A stretch of DNA of 64,000 nucleotides from Christiangramia sediminis (GTDB lineage Bacteria > Bacteroidota > Bacteroidia > Flavobacteriales > Flavobacteriaceae). Positions 20,302 through 27,227 of this stretch are shown here, piece after piece. The position numbers were made by a program, and so were the translations under genes. Below the pieces are notes generated by a model that did not search any database, was not told the origin of the DNA, and saw only the letters and a list, made by a program, of their open reading frames with translations. Positions within the stretch are counted from its first letter, which is position 1. Every line of letters starts with the position of its first letter. The stretch is from assembly GCF_020552705.1 (NCBI RefSeq), contig NZ_JAJBZG010000002.1, forward strand, positions 620,001 through 684,000. Direction: 5' to 3'.

Positions 20302-20338
20302 TTGAAAATCCTGGAACCCTACGTCCGGGATTTTTATT
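20302..20338 (+). terminator. Intrinsic terminator of the marR operon
   Basis: AAAATCCTGGA pairs with TCCGGGATTTT (one T-G pair) around ACCCTACG, followed by a T-run, directly after the YceI stop. Confidence 0.78.
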
Positions 20339-20348
20339 TGGAAAAATG

Positions 20349-20379
20349 TTTGTTTTGAAAAATTTCATCTCTATCTTTG
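20349..20379 (+). promoter_or_regulatory. trp operon promoter (TTTG, 19 bases, TATCTTTG)
   Basis: The -33 TTTG (20349-20352) and -7 TATCTTTG (20372-20379) match both Bacteroidota consensus boxes with 19-base spacing. The leader peptide ATG begins five bases after the -7 box, so transcription should start at or within a few bases of that ATG. Confidence 0.75.
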
Positions 20380-20384
20380 AGGTC

Positions 20385-20441
20385 ATGTTTAAAATAAATA
20401 AAAATAACTGGTGGTGGAATAACTTACGTCAAACTTCGTGA
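20385..20441 (+). CDS. trpL: trp leader peptide (18 residues, three consecutive Trp)
   Basis: An ATG-to-TGA frame encodes MFKINKNNWWWNNLRQTS. The three adjacent TGG codons at 20409-20417 are the classic sign of a tryptophan attenuator leader peptide. It lies between the operon promoter and a strong terminator that precedes trpE. If charged tRNA-Trp is scarce, a ribosome should stall at the Trp codons. Otherwise it reaches the stop codon at 20439-20441 and covers the sequence that could pair with the terminator loop. The near-absence of a 5' leader suggests leaderless initiation. Symbol given by analogy with enteric trpL. Confidence 0.82.
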   Translation: MFKINKNNWWWNNLRQTS

Positions 20442-20489
20442 GCTAAACTGCTATTTCCATTATAGAAATTACAAAGGCTTGTCTCACGA
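20436..20489 (+). promoter_or_regulatory. Candidate antiterminator pairing in the trp leader
   Basis: TCGTGAG (20436-20442, spanning the leader stop codon) is perfectly complementary to CTCACGA (20483-20489), which forms the loop and top of the terminator. A small ATTTC/GAAAT hairpin (20453-20469) lies between. The pairing disturbs only the upper two base pairs and loop of the terminator, so whether it is sufficient to prevent termination is uncertain. Confidence 0.45.
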
Positions 20490-20503
20490 CAAGCCTTTTT
20501 TTA
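20473..20503 (+). terminator. trp attenuator terminator
   Basis: AAGGCTTGTC and GACAAGCCTT form a perfect 10-bp stem with loop TCAC, followed by seven T. It lies between trpL and trpE, 20 bases before the trpE ATG, where it can only act as a conditional terminator. Confidence 0.88.
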
Positions 20504-20523
20504 TTACAAAAAATCAACATTCA

Positions 20524-21918
20524 ATGTTTGAATTAAATACAAAATATAAGAAGATCCTCGCCGATACTATTACCCCGGTCAGCATCTACCTGAAATTAAG
20601 GGATAAGTACCCCAACAGTTTATTGCTGGAAAGTAGTGACTATCATGCAAGTGACAATAGTTTCTCCTATATCTGTTTTAACCCGATCGCTTCCTTTAAA
20701 TTAGAAAATGAGGTTATTACCACTACATTTCCAGATGGAGGTATGGATTCAACAAATATTGATTCATCAGTTTCTGTACCTAAGGAAATTCAGAGATTCT
20801 CTCAGATGTTCAAGGCAGATTCATCTGATTTCAAGTTCATCAATAATGGTCTTTTTGGATATATTGCCTATGATTCGGTTCGATATTTTGAAAATGTCGA
20901 GGTAACCAGAAAAGAGAAAGATCTTAAGATCCCTGATATTTATTACGCAGTATATCAAAATATTATTGCCATAAATCATTTCAAGAACGAAGCCTATATT
21001 TTTGATCATTCTTATAATTCTGAAGGTAAGATTGAAGAAATTGAGCAACTATTAAAAGTAAAGAACTTCGCTTCTTATAATTTCACCCGAAATGACGATC
21101 CAGAATCGAATTTGACCGATGGTGAATATAAGGCCATGGTAGATTCAGCGAAAGATCATTGCCACAGAGGAGATGTTTTTCAGCTAGTACTTTCCCGAAG
21201 ATTCTCTCAAAAATTTAAGGGAGACGAATTCAATGTGTATCGCGCTCTAAGGAATGTGAATCCATCTCCATACCTCTTCTATTTTGACTACGGAAACTTT
21301 AAAATATTTGGAAGTTCTCCCGAAGCACAATTGGTGGTAAATAAAGGTAGAGCTGAAATTCATCCAATTGCCGGTACATTTAAAAGAACCGGGGATGATG
21401 AAAAAGATGCTGAAATCGCCAAGGAATTAGCGGTGGATGAAAAAGAGAATTCTGAGCATGTGATGCTGGTAGATCTTGCTCGGAACGACCTTAGCCGAAA
21501 CGGAAGTGATGTGAAAGTTGAGAATTATAGACAAATTCAGTTCTTCTCTCATGTGATTCATCTGGTAAGCAAAGTCACCGGAAAAAAAGATCCAAATGTT
21601 TCTACTCCTCAAATTGTAGCCGACACTTTCCCGGCAGGAACCTTAAGTGGAGCACCTAAACCCATGGCTTTAAAACTGATCGAGAAATTCGAGAATGTAA
21701 ATAGAAGTGCTTACGGTGGAGCCATTGGATTTATGGATTTTGAAGGAAATTTTAATCATGCCATCATCATCAGGTCTTTCGTAAGTAAAAATCATGAACT
21801 ACATTATCAGGCCGGAGCTGGAATTGTCTCCGAATCCAAGCCAGAAAATGAACTACAGGAAGTGTATAATAAATTGGGAGCTTTGACTAAAGCCCTTGAA
21901 ATTGCTGAAGAAATATAA
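20524..21918 (+). CDS. trpE: Anthranilate synthase component I
   Basis: The 464-residue protein converts chorismate to anthranilate with ammonia supplied by TrpG. The N-terminal LLESSD is the known tryptophan feedback-binding motif, and the C-terminal chorismate-binding domain shows IAGTFKRTGDDEKDAE, DLARNDLSRNG, GTLSGAPKPMA and the terminal GAGIV region. The ATG at 20524 (MFELNTKYKK) is correct, because an in-frame TTG at 20479 lies inside the attenuator stem. It is the first structural gene of the operon, and trpG begins one base after its stop. Confidence 0.96.
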   Translation: MFELNTKYKKILADTITPVSIYLKLRDKYPNSLLLESSDYHASDNSFSYICFNPIASFKLENEVITTTFPDGGMDSTNIDSSVSVPKEIQRFSQMFKADSSDFKFINNGLFGYIAYDSVRYFENVEVTRKEKDLKIPDIYYAVYQNIIAINHFKNEAYIFDHSYNSEGKIEEIEQLLKVKNFASYNFTRNDDPESNLTDGEYKAMVDSAKDHCHRGDVFQLVLSRRFSQKFKGDEFNVYRALRNVNPSPYLFYFDYGNFKIFGSSPEAQLVVNKGRAEIHPIAGTFKRTGDDEKDAEIAKELAVDEKENSEHVMLVDLARNDLSRNGSDVKVENYRQIQFFSHVIHLVSKVTGKKDPNVSTPQIVADTFPAGTLSGAPKPMALKLIEKFENVNRSAYGGAIGFMDFEGNFNHAIIIRSFVSKNHELHYQAGAGIVSESKPENELQEVYNKLGALTKALEIAEEI

Positions 21919-21919
21919 A

Positions 21920-22552
21920 ATGAAAGAGATAAAGAAAATACTGGTAATTGATAATTACGATTCTTTCGTATACAATTTGGTTCATTATCTGGAAGAACTT
22001 GACTGCAAAGTAGTGGTTAGACGTAATGACCAATTACATATTGATGATCCCGAGGAATACGACAAGATCCTATTATCACCAGGACCGGGTATTCCTGACG
22101 AAGCAGGACTTCTAAAACCAATTATTGAAAAATACGCGGCTACAAAAAGTATCTTTGGAGTTTGTTTGGGAATGCAGGCGATTGGGGAGGTTTTCGGAGG
22201 AAAATTATTGAATCTTGACGAGGTATATCACGGTGTAGCCACAAAGATCAATCTATTTGTGGAAGATGAATATATCTTTAATGGTCTCGACAATGAATTA
22301 ATGGTAGGAAGATATCACTCCTGGGTAGTTGAGAAGGCCTTACCTCCTGCTCTTCAAGCCACCAGTTATGATGAAAAGGGGGAGATCATGTCCCTGAGAC
22401 ATAAAGAATTTGATGTTCGCGGGGTTCAGTTTCATCCTGAATCTGTACTAACTCCTGAAGGAAAGAGAATGATCAGGAATTGGGTGGATGGTCCTGATTT
22501 ACATAATTCGAAAAAAGAGGAAGTTTCAAAATCGGAAAAACCAATTCATTAA
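21920..22552 (+). CDS. trpG: Anthranilate synthase component II (glutamine amidotransferase)
   Basis: A 210-residue class I glutamine amidotransferase with IDNYDSFVYNLVHYL at the start. The nucleophile Cys is in FGVCLGMQAIGE, and the His/Glu pair is in VQFHPESVLTPEG. It hydrolyses glutamine and passes ammonia to TrpE. The ATG at 21920 follows the trpE stop by one base, giving tight coupling. A C-terminal tail of charged residues extends past the catalytic core. A palindromic repeat separates it from trpD. Confidence 0.95.
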   Translation: MKEIKKILVIDNYDSFVYNLVHYLEELDCKVVVRRNDQLHIDDPEEYDKILLSPGPGIPDEAGLLKPIIEKYAATKSIFGVCLGMQAIGEVFGGKLLNLDEVYHGVATKINLFVEDEYIFNGLDNELMVGRYHSWVVEKALPPALQATSYDEKGEIMSLRHKEFDVRGVQFHPESVLTPEGKRMIRNWVDGPDLHNSKKEEVSKSEKPIH

Positions 22553-22564
22553 AATTGCTAAAAT

Positions 22565-22644
22565 CGTCAAGCTGAACTTGTTTCAGCATCTCTAAAGATC
22601 CTGAAATCAAAGATTCAACGAAGTTAAACAAGTTCAGGATGACG
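22565..22644. repeat. Palindromic intergenic repeat, copy A (in the trp operon)
   Basis: The left end CGTCAAGCTGAACTTGTTT and right end AAACAAGTTCAGGATGACG are inverted with 17 of 19 matches. An inner CAGCATCTCTAAAGATCCTG motif is shared in form with the copy at 32422-32478. It fills the gap between trpG and trpD and could fold into a long hairpin in the mRNA. Confidence 0.8.
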
Positions 22645-22664
22645 AATCAGAAGATATTATAAAA

Positions 22665-23669
22665 ATGAAAGAATTATTAAACCGGCTTATAAGTCACGAG
22701 ACCATAAGCACTGAAGAGGCTAAACAGGTTATTTTCAATATTTCGGAAGGAAAATATAATGAAACTCAGATCGCCGCTTTTCTCACCGTTTATATGATGA
22801 GAAGTATTACTATTGAAGAATTAGAAGGTTTCAGGGATGCTTTACTGGAATTATGTATAAAAGTTGATCTTTCTGCCTACGAAGCTGTGGATCTCTGCGG
22901 AACCGGTGGCGATGGGAAAGACACTTTCAATATTTCCACGACCTCATCATTTGTAACTGCTGGCTCCGGAGTAAAGGTTGCCAAACATGGTAATTACGGA
23001 GTCTCATCTGTAAGCGGTAGCTCCAATGTTATGGAATACCTCGGCATCAAATTCAGCAGTGATGCCGGCTTTTTGGAAAAATGTATAGATAAAGCCAATA
23101 TTTGTATTCTGCATGCTCCTTTATTTCACCCGGCGATGAAAAATGTGGCTCCGGTAAGAAAAAGTCTTGCGGTAAAGACTTTCTTTAATATGCTCGGACC
23201 TATGGTGAATCCGGCGTTTCCAAAGAATCAACTGGTTGGAGTCTTCAGTCTGGAACTGGCTCGTATGTATGCCTATTTATACCAGAACACCGATAAGAAT
23301 TATACTATTTTGCATGCCCTGGATGGTTATGATGAAATCTCGCTTACCGGAGAAACCAAGAGTATAAGTAATAATTCAGAAAGAGTATTAAAAGCTTCAG
23401 ATTTTGGAGTTTCAGAATTAAAACAATCAGAAATTGCAGGTGGTGGTTCTATTGAAAGTTCTGCAGAGATCTTAACCAATATTCTAAAAGGAAAAGGGTC
23501 TCAAGCTCAGAATAATGTGGTTTGTGCGAATGCGGGAATGGCCATTGCGACATCAAGAAATTTAAGTCCTCAGGATGGTTTTCAGATGGCAAAGGAATCT
23601 TTAGAGTCTGGAAAAGCCTTTGAGAGTTTCAAAAAATTACAGGAATTAAGTCAAAATGGAATTAAATGA
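22665..23669 (+). CDS. trpD: Anthranilate phosphoribosyltransferase
   Basis: This 334-residue enzyme transfers phosphoribose from PRPP to anthranilate. The PRPP-binding motif CGTGGDGKDTFNIST lies near residue 81, and KHGNYGVSSVSGSSNVME near 107 is the family's second conserved region. ARPVRKSLA-type residues (APVRKSLAVKTFFNMLGP) bind anthranilate. The stop overlaps the trpC start by four bases (ATGA), indicating translational coupling. The length is normal for the family. Confidence 0.96.
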   Translation: MKELLNRLISHETISTEEAKQVIFNISEGKYNETQIAAFLTVYMMRSITIEELEGFRDALLELCIKVDLSAYEAVDLCGTGGDGKDTFNISTTSSFVTAGSGVKVAKHGNYGVSSVSGSSNVMEYLGIKFSSDAGFLEKCIDKANICILHAPLFHPAMKNVAPVRKSLAVKTFFNMLGPMVNPAFPKNQLVGVFSLELARMYAYLYQNTDKNYTILHALDGYDEISLTGETKSISNNSERVLKASDFGVSELKQSEIAGGGSIESSAEILTNILKGKGSQAQNNVVCANAGMAIATSRNLSPQDGFQMAKESLESGKAFESFKKLQELSQNGIK

Positions 23670-24454
23670 ATATCCTCGATAAGATTATAGCAGATAAATT
23701 CAAAGAAGTTGAGTTAAAAAAATCACTGATTCCGGTTTCACAACTGGAGAATTCGGTTCTATTCAACAGGAAATGTATTTCTCTTGCTGAAAATTTAAAA
23801 AAGGGTTCCGGTATTATTGCAGAACATAAAAGGAGATCACCTTCAAAAGATGTGATAAATCAGAGTCTGAATGTCCAGGATGTAGTGAAGGGATATGAAA
23901 AGGCTGAAGTTTCAGGAATCTCAGTACTCACCGACGGGAAATATTTCGGTGGTTCTTTAGAAGACCTTCTGCACGCGAGGGCTTCAGTTACAACTCCAAT
24001 CCTTAGGAAGGAATTTATGATAGATGAATATCAGGTAACCGAAGCAAAAGCCTACGGTGCAGATGCCATTCTTTTGATCGCCGCGGTTTTAACTGAGAAA
24101 CAATTGATTTATCTTGCAGATTCAGCAAAAAATCTGGGGATGGATGTACTGCTGGAAATTCATAACGAAGAGGAATTGCAGAAATCTTTAAAGGTGAACG
24201 CAGATATGATCGGGGTGAATAACCGCAATCTGAAGACTTTCGAGGTAAGTATTGATAATTCAAAAAATCTGGCCAGACTTATTCCGAATGAATTTGTAAA
24301 AGTTTCAGAAAGTGGAATTAGCAATACCGGGGCGATTGCAGATCTGAAAAATTACGGATATCAGGGATTTTTGATTGGGGAAAATTTTATGAAGACGAAT
24401 AACCCGGGTGTTGCAGCAAAAGCATTTATTAAAGAATTAAAATCTATCGTATAA
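23666..24454 (+). CDS. trpC: Indole-3-glycerol phosphate synthase
   Basis: A 262-residue TIM-barrel enzyme that cyclises CdRP to indole-3-glycerol phosphate. The catalytic entry motif EHKRRSPSK (Lys) is near residue 53, LRKEFMIDEYQV near 112, GVNNRNLKTFEV near 184 and SESGI near 213. It is a single-function protein, not fused to TrpF as in E. coli. It overlaps trpD by four bases, and trpF begins directly after its stop. Confidence 0.96.
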   Translation: MNILDKIIADKFKEVELKKSLIPVSQLENSVLFNRKCISLAENLKKGSGIIAEHKRRSPSKDVINQSLNVQDVVKGYEKAEVSGISVLTDGKYFGGSLEDLLHARASVTTPILRKEFMIDEYQVTEAKAYGADAILLIAAVLTEKQLIYLADSAKNLGMDVLLEIHNEEELQKSLKVNADMIGVNNRNLKTFEVSIDNSKNLARLIPNEFVKVSESGISNTGAIADLKNYGYQGFLIGENFMKTNNPGVAAKAFIKELKSIV

Positions 24455-25168
24455 ATGGATCTAGAAAAGATGAAAGAAAAATCTATGGTTACTTCGGCTT
24501 CAGGACAAAGTTCAGGATTGAGTTTAAAAGTCTGCGGAATGCAAAATTCGGGAAATATGATGCAGGTGGCAGAATTACAACCAGATTATCTGGGCCTCAT
24601 CTTTTATGATAAATCTCCCCGATATTTTGACGGAGAACTTCCTGAAATTGCTCCGGAAATTAAAAAAGCTGGTGTATTTGTAAATGCCAAAATTCAGCAC
24701 ATTACAGAGAAAGTTCAAAAATATAATTTGAATGCAGTTCAGCTACACGGCGAAGAATCAGCAGCTTATGCAAAAGATCTAAAAACTGAACTTCAGAGAG
24801 CTGGCTTTACTCCTGAAATAATTAAAGTATTTTCTGTTGGAGATGCTTATGATTTCCAGGAAATAAAACCTTTTGAAGGTATAGTGGATTACTTTCTTTT
24901 CGACACTAAAGGAAAACTTCGTGGAGGAAATGGAACCGAATTCGACTGGAAACTATTAGAAGATTATCCTTCTAATACACCATTCTTTTTAAGTGGCGGT
25001 ATTGGCCCTGAACATGGAAGAGCTATCGCAGAATTAAAAAGTCATTTTTACAGAAAAGGTAAACCGGGATTGCTTTATGCTGTGGATGTGAACAGCAAAT
25101 TTGAATTAAAACCCGGCTTAAAAAAATTAAAGGAATTGAAAGATTTCAAATCTCAGATAAACTTATAA
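24455..25168 (+). CDS. trpF: Phosphoribosylanthranilate isomerase
   Basis: The 237-residue protein has the catalytic Cys motif LKVCGMQ and the barrel elements [29 protein letters not shown] and [11 protein letters not shown]. About 22 extra residues precede the core ([21 protein letters not shown]), and no internal ATG gives a better start, so the extension is either real or the start is later at a non-ATG codon. It isomerises PRA to CdRP, the substrate of TrpC. It abuts trpC and trpB closely. Confidence 0.93.
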
Positions 25169-25169
25169 G

Positions 25170-26351
25170 ATGAGCTATCAGGTTGATGAAAAAGGATATT
25201 ACGGTGAATTTGGCGGCGCCTATATTCCCGAAATGCTTTATCCAAACGTGGAGGAATTGCGTTCGCGCTACTTGGATATTATGAAAGAAGAATCTTTTCA
25301 AAAGGAATTCAAGGAACTACTGAGAGAATATGTAGGTCGCCCTACTCCACTCTATTACGCGAAGAGATTTAGTGAAAAGTACGGCACTAAGGTTTATTTG
25401 AAACGTGAAGACCTTTGTCATACCGGAGCCCACAAAGTGAACAATACCGTCGGGCAGATCCTGATGGCGCAAAAACTGGGTAAAAATCGCATCATTGCGG
25501 AAACCGGAGCAGGCCAGCACGGTGTAGCTACGGCCACTGTTTGCGCACTTATGGGTATGGAATGCATCGTTTACATGGGAGAGATCGATATAGACAGACA
25601 GGCACCTAATGTGGCCCGGATGAAAATGCTTGGGGCAAAAGTAGTCCCTGCAAAATCGGGAAGCCGTACGCTAAAAGATGCCACCAATGAAGCTATTCGG
25701 GACTGGATCAATAATCCCGTAGACACTCATTATATAATTGGATCTGTAGTTGGACCTCACCCTTATCCGGATATGGTAGCCAGATTCCAGGCGGTTATTT
25801 CGGAAGAGATCAAAGTTCAGCTTAGAGAAAAAGAAGGTAAGGAAGATCCTGATTTTGTTGTGGCCTGTGTGGGTGGAGGAAGTAATGCCGCCGGTGCTTA
25901 CTACCATTATCTTGATAATCCTGCTGTTGGAATAATTGCGGTGGAAGCTGCCGGAAAAGGAATCGATTCAGGTGAAAGTGCGGCTACTTCTGCTCTTGGA
26001 AAAGCCGGAATTATCCACGGAAGTAAAACCTTGTTAATGCAAACCGGGGATGGACAAATTACCGAGCCTTATTCCATTTCTGCAGGATTGGATTATCCCG
26101 GAGTTGGCCCTATGCACGCGAACCTTTTTACCAGCGGAAGAGGTGAATTTATAAGTATCACTGATGAAGCCGCGATGAAAGCCGGGCTTGAACTGGCCAA
26201 ACTGGAAGGGATTATCCCTGCTATAGAAACTTCTCACGCCCTGGCAATTTTTGAAACCAGGAAATTTAAAGAAGATGACGTGGTGGTGATTAATCTTTCA
26301 GGTCGCGGAGATAAAGACCTGAATACTTATATCGAATATTTTAATTTATAA
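25170..26351 (+). CDS. trpB: Tryptophan synthase beta chain
   Basis: A 393-residue PLP enzyme that joins indole and serine to make tryptophan. The cofactor Lys is in [10 protein letters not shown] near residue 89, the phosphate-binding GGGSNAAG near 237 and the C-terminal SGRGDKD near 382. [10 protein letters not shown] at the N-terminus contributes to the alpha-beta interface. It starts one base after the trpF stop. A palindromic repeat lies between it and trpA. Confidence 0.97.
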
Positions 26352-26357
26352 TTTGCA

Positions 26358-26442
26358 GTCATTGCAATAACGATAAATATCGGGAGAAGAAATCTCATGC
26401 TTTATTATATGAGATTGCTTCGGGCATCGCCCTCGCAATGAC
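26358..26442. repeat. Palindromic intergenic repeat, copy B (in the trp operon)
   Basis: GTCATTGC at the left end and GCAATGAC at the right end are inverted, and an internal AATCTCAT/ATGAGATT pair gives a second stem. It occupies nearly the whole gap between trpB and trpA and belongs to a different family from copy A. Confidence 0.75.
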
Positions 26443-26447
26443 AGAAA

Positions 26448-27227
26448 ATGAAAAAAATGAACAGAATTAATCAAAAACTGCAGGAAGATCATAAACTGCT
26501 ATCTATATATTTTACTGCCGGATATCCCGATTTTGAGGATACTGAAAAGATCATTGTAGATCTGGAAAGGAGCGGAGTCGATTTTATTGAAATCGGCCTC
26601 CCCTTTAGTGATCCTTTGGCTGACGGACCGACTATCCAGGAGAGTTCTACCAAAGCCTTAAAAAAGGGAATGACTACCTCCAAATTATTCAAGCAACTGG
26701 AAGGCATCAGAGAAAAGGTTGACATCCCTTTGATCATAATGGGTTATTTTAATCCTATCCTTCAATTTGGAGTAGAGGAATTCTGTAAAAAATGCCAGGA
26801 AACAGGTATCGATGGACTTATCATTCCTGATCTTCCGGTAGATGTTTACCATGAGAAATATCAGAAATTATTTGAAGCATATGGATTAAGAAACATCTTT
26901 TTAATTACTCCGCAGACTTCAGATGAACGAATAAGATTTATCGATTCGGTTTCTAAAGGGTTTATCTATATGGTAAGCAGTGCCAGTGTGACTGGTTCTA
27001 CCAGCGGATTTGGAGAAGAGACTAAAGCCTATTTTAAAAGGATTAATGATCTTCGGCTTAAAAATCCACAAATCGTCGGCTTCGGAATTAAGGATAAAGA
27101 AACTTTTGACCAGGCCACTCAATATGCAAAAGGAGCGATTATAGGAAGTGCATTTATAAAACATCTGAATGAAAATGGAACCTCAAATATTAGTTCATTC
27201 ATCCAAAATGTTAAAGCTTTAACCTAA
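26448..27227 (+). CDS. trpA: Tryptophan synthase alpha chain
   Basis: This 259-residue barrel protein cleaves indole-3-glycerol phosphate to indole, which is channelled to TrpB. FIEIGLPFSDPLADGPTIQ near residue 47 holds the catalytic Glu and Asp. PDLPVDVY near 126, FLITPQTSDERI near 152 and GFGIKDKET near 210 complete the family pattern. It is the last gene of the trp operon. Two ATGs close together (26448 and 26457) could serve; the first is used. Confidence 0.96.
   Translation: MKKMNRINQKLQEDHKLLSIYFTAGYPDFEDTEKIIVDLERSGVDFIEIGLPFSDPLADGPTIQESSTKALKKGMTTSKLFKQLEGIREKVDIPLIIMGYFNPILQFGVEEFCKKCQETGIDGLIIPDLPVDVYHEKYQKLFEAYGLRNIFLITPQTSDERIRFIDSVSKGFIYMVSSASVTGSTSGFGEETKAYFKRINDLRLKNPQIVGFGIKDKETFDQATQYAKGAIIGSAFIKHLNENGTSNISSFIQNVKALT

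Follow-up and report, generated by a model that had tools for sequence, protein, structure and literature searches.

The trpL leader of E. coli carries tandem Trp codons and the structures 1:2, 2:3 and 3:4 ahead of trpE. Bacteroidota ribosomes do not use Shine-Dalgarno pairing. In Sinorhizobium meliloti, the trpL leader transcript is reported to start at the start codon of a Trp-codon ORF that precedes trpE, in an operon that is not under transcription repression (PMC7298713). Within the Bacteroidota, Bacteroid-trp is listed as a motif in Table 1 of Weinberg et al. 2010 (PMC2864571), and according to a 2019 paper on Flavobacterium psychrophilum it resembles the E. coli leader and is conserved upstream of the trp operon of the species (PMC6414381). 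The 2021 transcriptome of F. psychrophilum, in the parts concerned, confirmed the expression of five Rfam cis-elements, presented strong clues for leader-peptide attenuation ahead of amino-acid operons, and named new 5' elements before pheA and hisG (PMC9723704). A literature search among open-licence papers found no experiment that had tested trp attenuation in this phylum.

The locus analysed here lies in a 64-kb window, which is the whole stretch of DNA that was analysed. Judged from sequence comparison and folding models, its leader is very probably a classical ribosome-mediated transcription attenuator of the trp operon. The features of the locus are as follows:

20349–20379, + strand: putative Bacteroidota-type promoter, recognised by eye, with TTTG at 20349–20352 (which we take to be the -33 box), a 19-nt spacer, and TATCTTTG (-7) at 20372–20379
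20365–20483, + strand: match to Rfam RF01692 (Bacteroid-trp), 66.1 bits (gathering cut-off 49), full model 1–131
20385–20441, + strand: leader peptide ORF of 18 codons, MFKINKNNWWWNNLRQTS and stop, read from the sequence
20409–20417, + strand: TGG TGG TGG, codons 9–11 of the 18-codon leader ORF (codons read directly, translation of the ORF predicted)
20423–20428, + strand: segment 1, CTTACG, partner of segment 2 in the 1:2 hairpin, from folding
20436–20442, + strand: segment 2, TCGTGAG, which spans the leader stop codon and forms the core of the predicted antiterminator 5' arm, extendable to about 20452
20473–20498, + strand: terminator hairpin (segments 3:4) with a perfect 11-bp stem and the loop TCAC, from scan and folding
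20496–20502, + strand: terminator T-run of seven T's, the first three of which form the 3' end of the stem
20524–21918, + strand: ORF that we take to be trpE, anthranilate synthase component I, the first structural gene
21920–27227, + strand: remaining operon, presumably trpG, trpD, trpC, trpF, trpB and trpA, names that we assigned from the translations of the ORFs 21896–22552, 22665–23669, 23666–24454, 24455–25168, 25170–26351 and 26448–27227

The 18-residue frame with three consecutive Trp codons that a sequence-only reading had described is present, and so is its terminator with T-run, which occupies 20473–20502 between the leader ORF and trpE, as a trp attenuator requires; the stem has 11 bp instead of the 10 that had been given. 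The trpE ATG is at 20524, 21 nt after the T-run. With the gene names taken as assumed, the trp operon in the window spans 20524–27227 in the order E, G, D, C, F, B, A. The ten named loci nearest to the window TrpE are 86–92% identical to it and all belong to Gramella/Christiangramia. The leader fold has a z of -4.08, and none of 200 shuffles was equally stable. Upstream of the leader, another hairpin with a T-run was seen by eye at 20305–20334 of the window; it follows a gene presumed to be YceI-like, of which it is likely the terminator, and its 10-nt loop places it outside the range of the terminator scan.

The RF01692 match (E 6e-6) was the single match when the 64-kb window was scanned against Rfam at gathering thresholds. 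With its score over the cut-off and its site upstream of Bacteroidota trp genes, the window leader belongs to Bacteroid-trp. The sequence-only reading had considered trp attenuation far less described in this phylum than in Enterobacteria. The novelty claimed in this way is wrong for the window locus, because the element is already RF01692, published in 2010 and discussed in 2019 for F. psychrophilum; as a member of a catalogued family, the locus is what would be expected. In the RF01692 model, a single long hairpin covers the Trp codons, and the model stops inside the 5' arm of the terminator; therefore, the terminator and the 2:3 antiterminator fall outside the model.

In logic, the window leader is like the E. 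coli-type trpL (RF00513), with tandem Trp codons and the pairings 1:2, 2:3 and 3:4 before trpE. It scores 16.5 bits against the RF00513 Trp_leader model, whose cut-off is 41, and no sequence relation is therefore detected at this threshold. Unlike E. coli trpL, the window leader has three consecutive Trp codons in a genome without a TrpR match, and its predicted 1-nt 5'UTR has no room for a Shine-Dalgarno region. S. meliloti trpL is alike in having a leaderless Trp-codon ORF before trpE, to which the predicted near-leaderless start in Bacteroidota corresponds, whereas phylum and promoter type differ. The leader-peptide elements of F. psychrophilum are of the same bacterial family and element class as that of the window; the paper on them offers a transcript map and structure clues for one species, whereas many families were compared here and the alternative pairing was tested.

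Conservation was followed in 80 related loci that were picked by TrpE similarity regardless of their leader. An ATG-started short ORF with a WWW run was found within 620 nt upstream of trpE in 73 of them and a GTG- or TTG-started WWW leader in five more, for a total of 78/80; the two loci without a WWW leader are on contigs that break off 35 and 165 nt ahead of trpE. The conserved terminator motif was also matched in 78 of these 80 TrpE-anchored loci. Relatives lacking the Trp codons or the terminator, which the sequence-only reading had named as evidence against attenuation, were thus looked for, and the two loci without a WWW leader were the cut contigs. The Trp codons are invariant or nearly so in an alignment of 61 family leaders, drawn from 105 non-redundant leaders among 156 distinct ones. 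Under strict filters, RF01692 matched 141 of 199 family genomes (one genome per genus) and 42 of 395 genomes of the phylum. Of these 42, 35 belong to the family, one to the order and six to other parts of the class; the matches outside the family are thus 7 of 42, with 5 over the cut-off.

Several counts below use a kept set of 211 of 265 loci (197 unique) that was limited to leaders with ATG as start codon, WW or WxW in the peptide and a terminator under a strict rule, and that served for the 2:3 shuffles, the CGTGA frame count, the family swap and both 5'UTR counts. Family loci were lost from it by a TTG/GTG start alone (e.g., L084, L086, L118, L129, and L135) or by a terminator that the rule missed (e.g., L009, L022, and L038). 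Three of its 162 family-like leaders (L002, L007, and L160) are RF01692 loci from other families, and these were excluded from the 159 leaders of the CGTGA frame count. Some loci fetched for comparison were hand-picked from match lists, at plus-strand places only. Trp leaders with TTG or GTG as the fitting start were noted at L084, L086, L118, L129, L135, L149, and L168, and such starts are possibly a way to tune basal termination. In eight relatives (L071, L072, L074, L082, L090, L124, L127, and L130), an ORF of about 95–100 codons, which we take to resemble a GIY-YIG nuclease, lies between the attenuator and trpE, at most 360 nt upstream of trpE; these loci keep their leader, farther upstream of trpE.

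Segment 2 is the exact complement of CTCACGA at 20483–20489, which takes in the loop of the terminator together with the last base of its 5' arm and two bases of its 3' arm. With a looser extension (GCU with GGC, UAA with UUG), the 2:3 duplex has a predicted energy of -12.2 kcal/mol. In the 61 aligned family leaders, the terminator was paired in 657/657 cells, with five pairs showing two-sided changes, and it was the only structure that RNAalifold returned for the family alignment. The 1:2 pairing was present in 78.1% of 365 cells (slid controls, 22.7–55.3%), and its 17 cells with two-sided changes did not exceed the slid controls, which gave 21 in two cases. The 2:3 pairing was present in 96.7% of cells (slid controls, 1.1–58.6%), and none of its pairs showed two-sided changes, the helix being nearly invariant. 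Covariation within the family therefore argues neither for nor against 2:3 and failed as a proof of the antiterminator; a count of frame independence and a cross-family swap were used instead, so the support for 2:3 was drawn from comparison between families.

Among 159 unique family leaders, the TGA of the CGTGA box is the stop codon in 114; the frame stops earlier in 18 and reads through the box in 22, and the exact CGTGA is missing from 5. The sequence comparison thus indicates that the segment 2 box is conserved independently of the reading frame, which supports 2:3. For the swap, one leader was taken from each of 20 families. Own partners gave a mean of -13.39 kcal/mol and swapped partners -9.51 kcal/mol, and none of 20000 permutations reached the own-partner sum; the own terminator ranked first for only 6 of the 20 leaders, and a base composition shared within a genome may contribute to the difference. 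When shuffles that keep composition were used, the 2:3 duplex was in the best 5% for 129 of 162 family-like leaders, which are mutually related and not independent, and for 20 of 35 leaders of other families, the remaining 15 of which did not stand out. The 2:3 arm overlaps the stop codon in 146 of the 162 family-like leaders and in only 11 of the 35 others. These comparisons and the folding models point to 2:3 as an antiterminator exclusive with the terminator, with a 5' arm that would be masked by a ribosome at the stop codon.

Folding was predicted for several ribosome states, with a ribosome mask that extends 12 nt downstream from the first base of the A-site codon and footprint edges that are assumed values. 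In partial transcripts with RNA end 20489, the probability of 2:3 was 0.95–0.96 with a ribosome stalled at Trp codon 9, 10 or 11, 0.56 without a ribosome, and 0 with a ribosome at the stop. At RNA end 20492, the respective values were 0.81–0.97, 0.03, and 0. For the full leader at equilibrium, the probability of the terminator was 1.00 in all five ribosome states tested, which equilibrium folding of the full leader consequently did not separate. Since the terminator wins in every state once its hairpin is complete, the switch must be kinetic and decided during transcription; in textbook attenuation, the choice is likewise made during transcription. The same equilibrium result would suit a constitutive partial terminator, in which the Trp run is incidental and the hairpin merely fixes the level of read-through. 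This explanation is very unlikely, because in a survey of trpE upstream regions of the same family a WWW short ORF was found at 15/15 loci (with a terminator at 14/15 under the rule of the script) and in none of 600 shuffles, and because the swap between families showed the box, which complements the terminator, to suit that of its own leader.

The anatomy of the leader, its conservation, the possible pairings and the fit between box and terminator across families were shown by the analysis, and anatomy and comparison lend support to the ribosome-mediated trp attenuation that the sequence-only reading had claimed. As for start site, translation, stalling, ribosome-polymerase coupling and response to tryptophan, we infer the following course. 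RNA polymerase would start about 1 nt upstream of the leader AUG, giving a near-leaderless start on which a ribosome would load. With ample Trp-tRNA, the ribosome would reach the stop codon and cover the UCGUGAG box, so that the 3:4 terminator would form and transcription would end before trpE. With scarce Trp-tRNA, the ribosome would stall on UGG-UGG-UGG and cover segment 1, and the freed box would pair with CUCACGA and part of the terminator 5' arm (2:3); no terminator would then form in time, and trpEGDCFBA would be transcribed. If there were no translation, 1:2 would form and termination would be the default.

A protein could also be the primary sensor, either promoter-bound TrpR or an RNA-binding protein of the TRAP kind, with the ORF as a secondary element; TrpR-type and TRAP-type proteins both regulate trp operons in other organisms. 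Control by either protein was rejected, since the genome had no match to Trp_repressor (PF01371) or TrpBP (PF02081) at E 0.001, whereas named control genomes matched. An unknown regulatory protein may act as the tryptophan sensor, although a primary protein sensor of any kind is even less probable than a constitutive terminator. A second Trp leader in the genome was also considered and rejected, as the two other places of the pattern (L266 and L267) read Gly codons in the frame of the matched ATG.

The sequence-only reading had listed a consensus promoter; boxes of Bacteroidota type are visible by eye at 20349–20379, whereas a scan for E. coli-type promoters listed none there on the + strand. 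The map of transcription start sites of F. psychrophilum, in the part concerned, places TAnnTTTG at -12 to -5 (PMC9723704), and this spacing, applied to the window, predicts +1 at 20384, 1 nt before the leader AUG. A box predicting a 5'UTR shorter than 10 nt was found in 67 of 161 family-like leaders (one of the 162 was skipped because its upstream stretch was short) and in 19 of 35 leaders of other families (shuffles, 1.7 and 2.0%). The predicted 5'UTR was three nt or less in 46 family-like and 11 other leaders (shuffles, 0.8 and 0.9%). When the first in-frame ATG after the box was taken as the start, it was shorter than 10 nt in 78 of the 159 family-like leaders and 19 of the 20 others that have the box; the box with an ATG was missing from 15 of the 35 others. 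By the same rule, 48 of the 159 family-like leaders are at exactly 1 nt, and most others at 3–4 or 10–16 nt. As measured backgrounds, 3.7% of the 5'UTRs of B. thetaiotaomicron are reported to be shorter than 10 nt (PMC7366714), and for F. psychrophilum the reported share of leaderless mRNAs is 5.5% (PMC9723704). Leader ORFs appear to be enriched for near-leaderless starts because the predicted shares exceed these backgrounds, a comparison that sets promoter predictions against measured transcripts.

Upstream of trpE, 29 of 35 loci from other families of the class carry a short ORF with WW or WxW, and 24 of these also have a terminator; in families outside the class, the ORF is present at 18 of 37 loci, 11 of them with a terminator; L211 and L217, each at a contig start, were set aside. 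Shuffled upstream regions gave such an ORF in 52/1400 (class) and 45/1480 (outside class) cases, and ORF plus terminator in 0/1400 and 1/1480. WWW alone occurred at 19/35 and 16/37 loci, respectively (shuffles, 1/1400 and 0/1480). Three of the six class-level misses were accounted for: L216, counted as a miss, is on a contig cut within about 160 nt upstream of trpE, L224 has its leader elsewhere, and L221 has a TTG-start WW leader. L209, L215, and L219 stayed misses on a second look, and outside the class 19 of the 37 loci had no Trp-run ORF upstream of trpE. The leader of L224 (also L002, in G347) was seen before a trpB-like ORF, 1.4 kb upstream of trpE; surveys anchored on trpE therefore undercount leaders.

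Forty loci of other families, chosen for a Trp-run ORF from 74 non-family loci and not including L224, whose genome has an RF01692 match, were given to Rfam, and none reached any cut-off. Their leader peptides vary in sequence (e.g., MKTIANKYWWWHSESFQGKVQQAVA, MKIQNNQTWWWHTNSFGVL, and MKKSAHKNINWWWPVKQHTQAVAFL), so the same logic would be retained with other letters. This comparison suggests that, beyond what the Rfam model detects, the same attenuator design is present in many further families of the phylum. Surveys that rely on Rfam would undercount the attenuator, because 40/40 of the divergent examples tested escape current Rfam models. A T-box or another tRNA- or metabolite-binding riboswitch with a short ORF by chance, a layout that likewise combines a terminator with an alternative structure, can be dismissed as the least probable explanation of all, since only RF01692 reached threshold in the 64-kb window, with no T-box match, and the Trp-run short ORF persists in loci that no Rfam model recognises.

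As a locus, the window attenuator is ordinary in kind; its interest lies in how far the design extends through the phylum outside the Rfam model and in the predicted near-leaderless start. From the sequence survey, trpE appears to be commonly controlled by leader-peptide attenuation in Bacteroidota, and the attenuator would be spread through much of a phylum that is independent of Shine-Dalgarno pairing. It is possible, if a little less probable than the contrary, that the amino-acid attenuators of Bacteroidota follow a design that is old, extends over the whole phylum and is based on leader ORFs with near-leaderless starts, with a start codon 0–9 nt from the transcription start and a ribosome that loads, without Shine-Dalgarno pairing, at once behind RNA polymerase. 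If true, transcription and translation would have to be coupled in the phylum tightly enough to permit attenuation, a coupling for which the trp leader would serve as a readout. The near-leaderless start, if real, would provide a reporter both for ribosome initiation on very short 5'UTRs and for transcription-translation coupling in Bacteroidota.

Short ORFs followed by terminators were also found before hisG and pheA of the same genome, the two genes with new 5' elements in F. psychrophilum, and they favour attenuation as the reading of the trp leader. At hisG (L269, minus strand of the locus), a His-run short ORF (MKKYTVHHHHFSTHAQARCM and stop) with a Bacteroidota promoter box and a predicted 5'UTR of 4 nt is followed by a terminator, with about 27 nt between its end and the likely hisG ATG. 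At pheA (L270), no TAnnTTTG box was recognised before the short ORF; this ORF is rich in Phe/Tyr (MTSLINWNAFYYFYFYTRDRIGNAI and stop), and a strong terminator follows it directly before the prephenate dehydratase gene.
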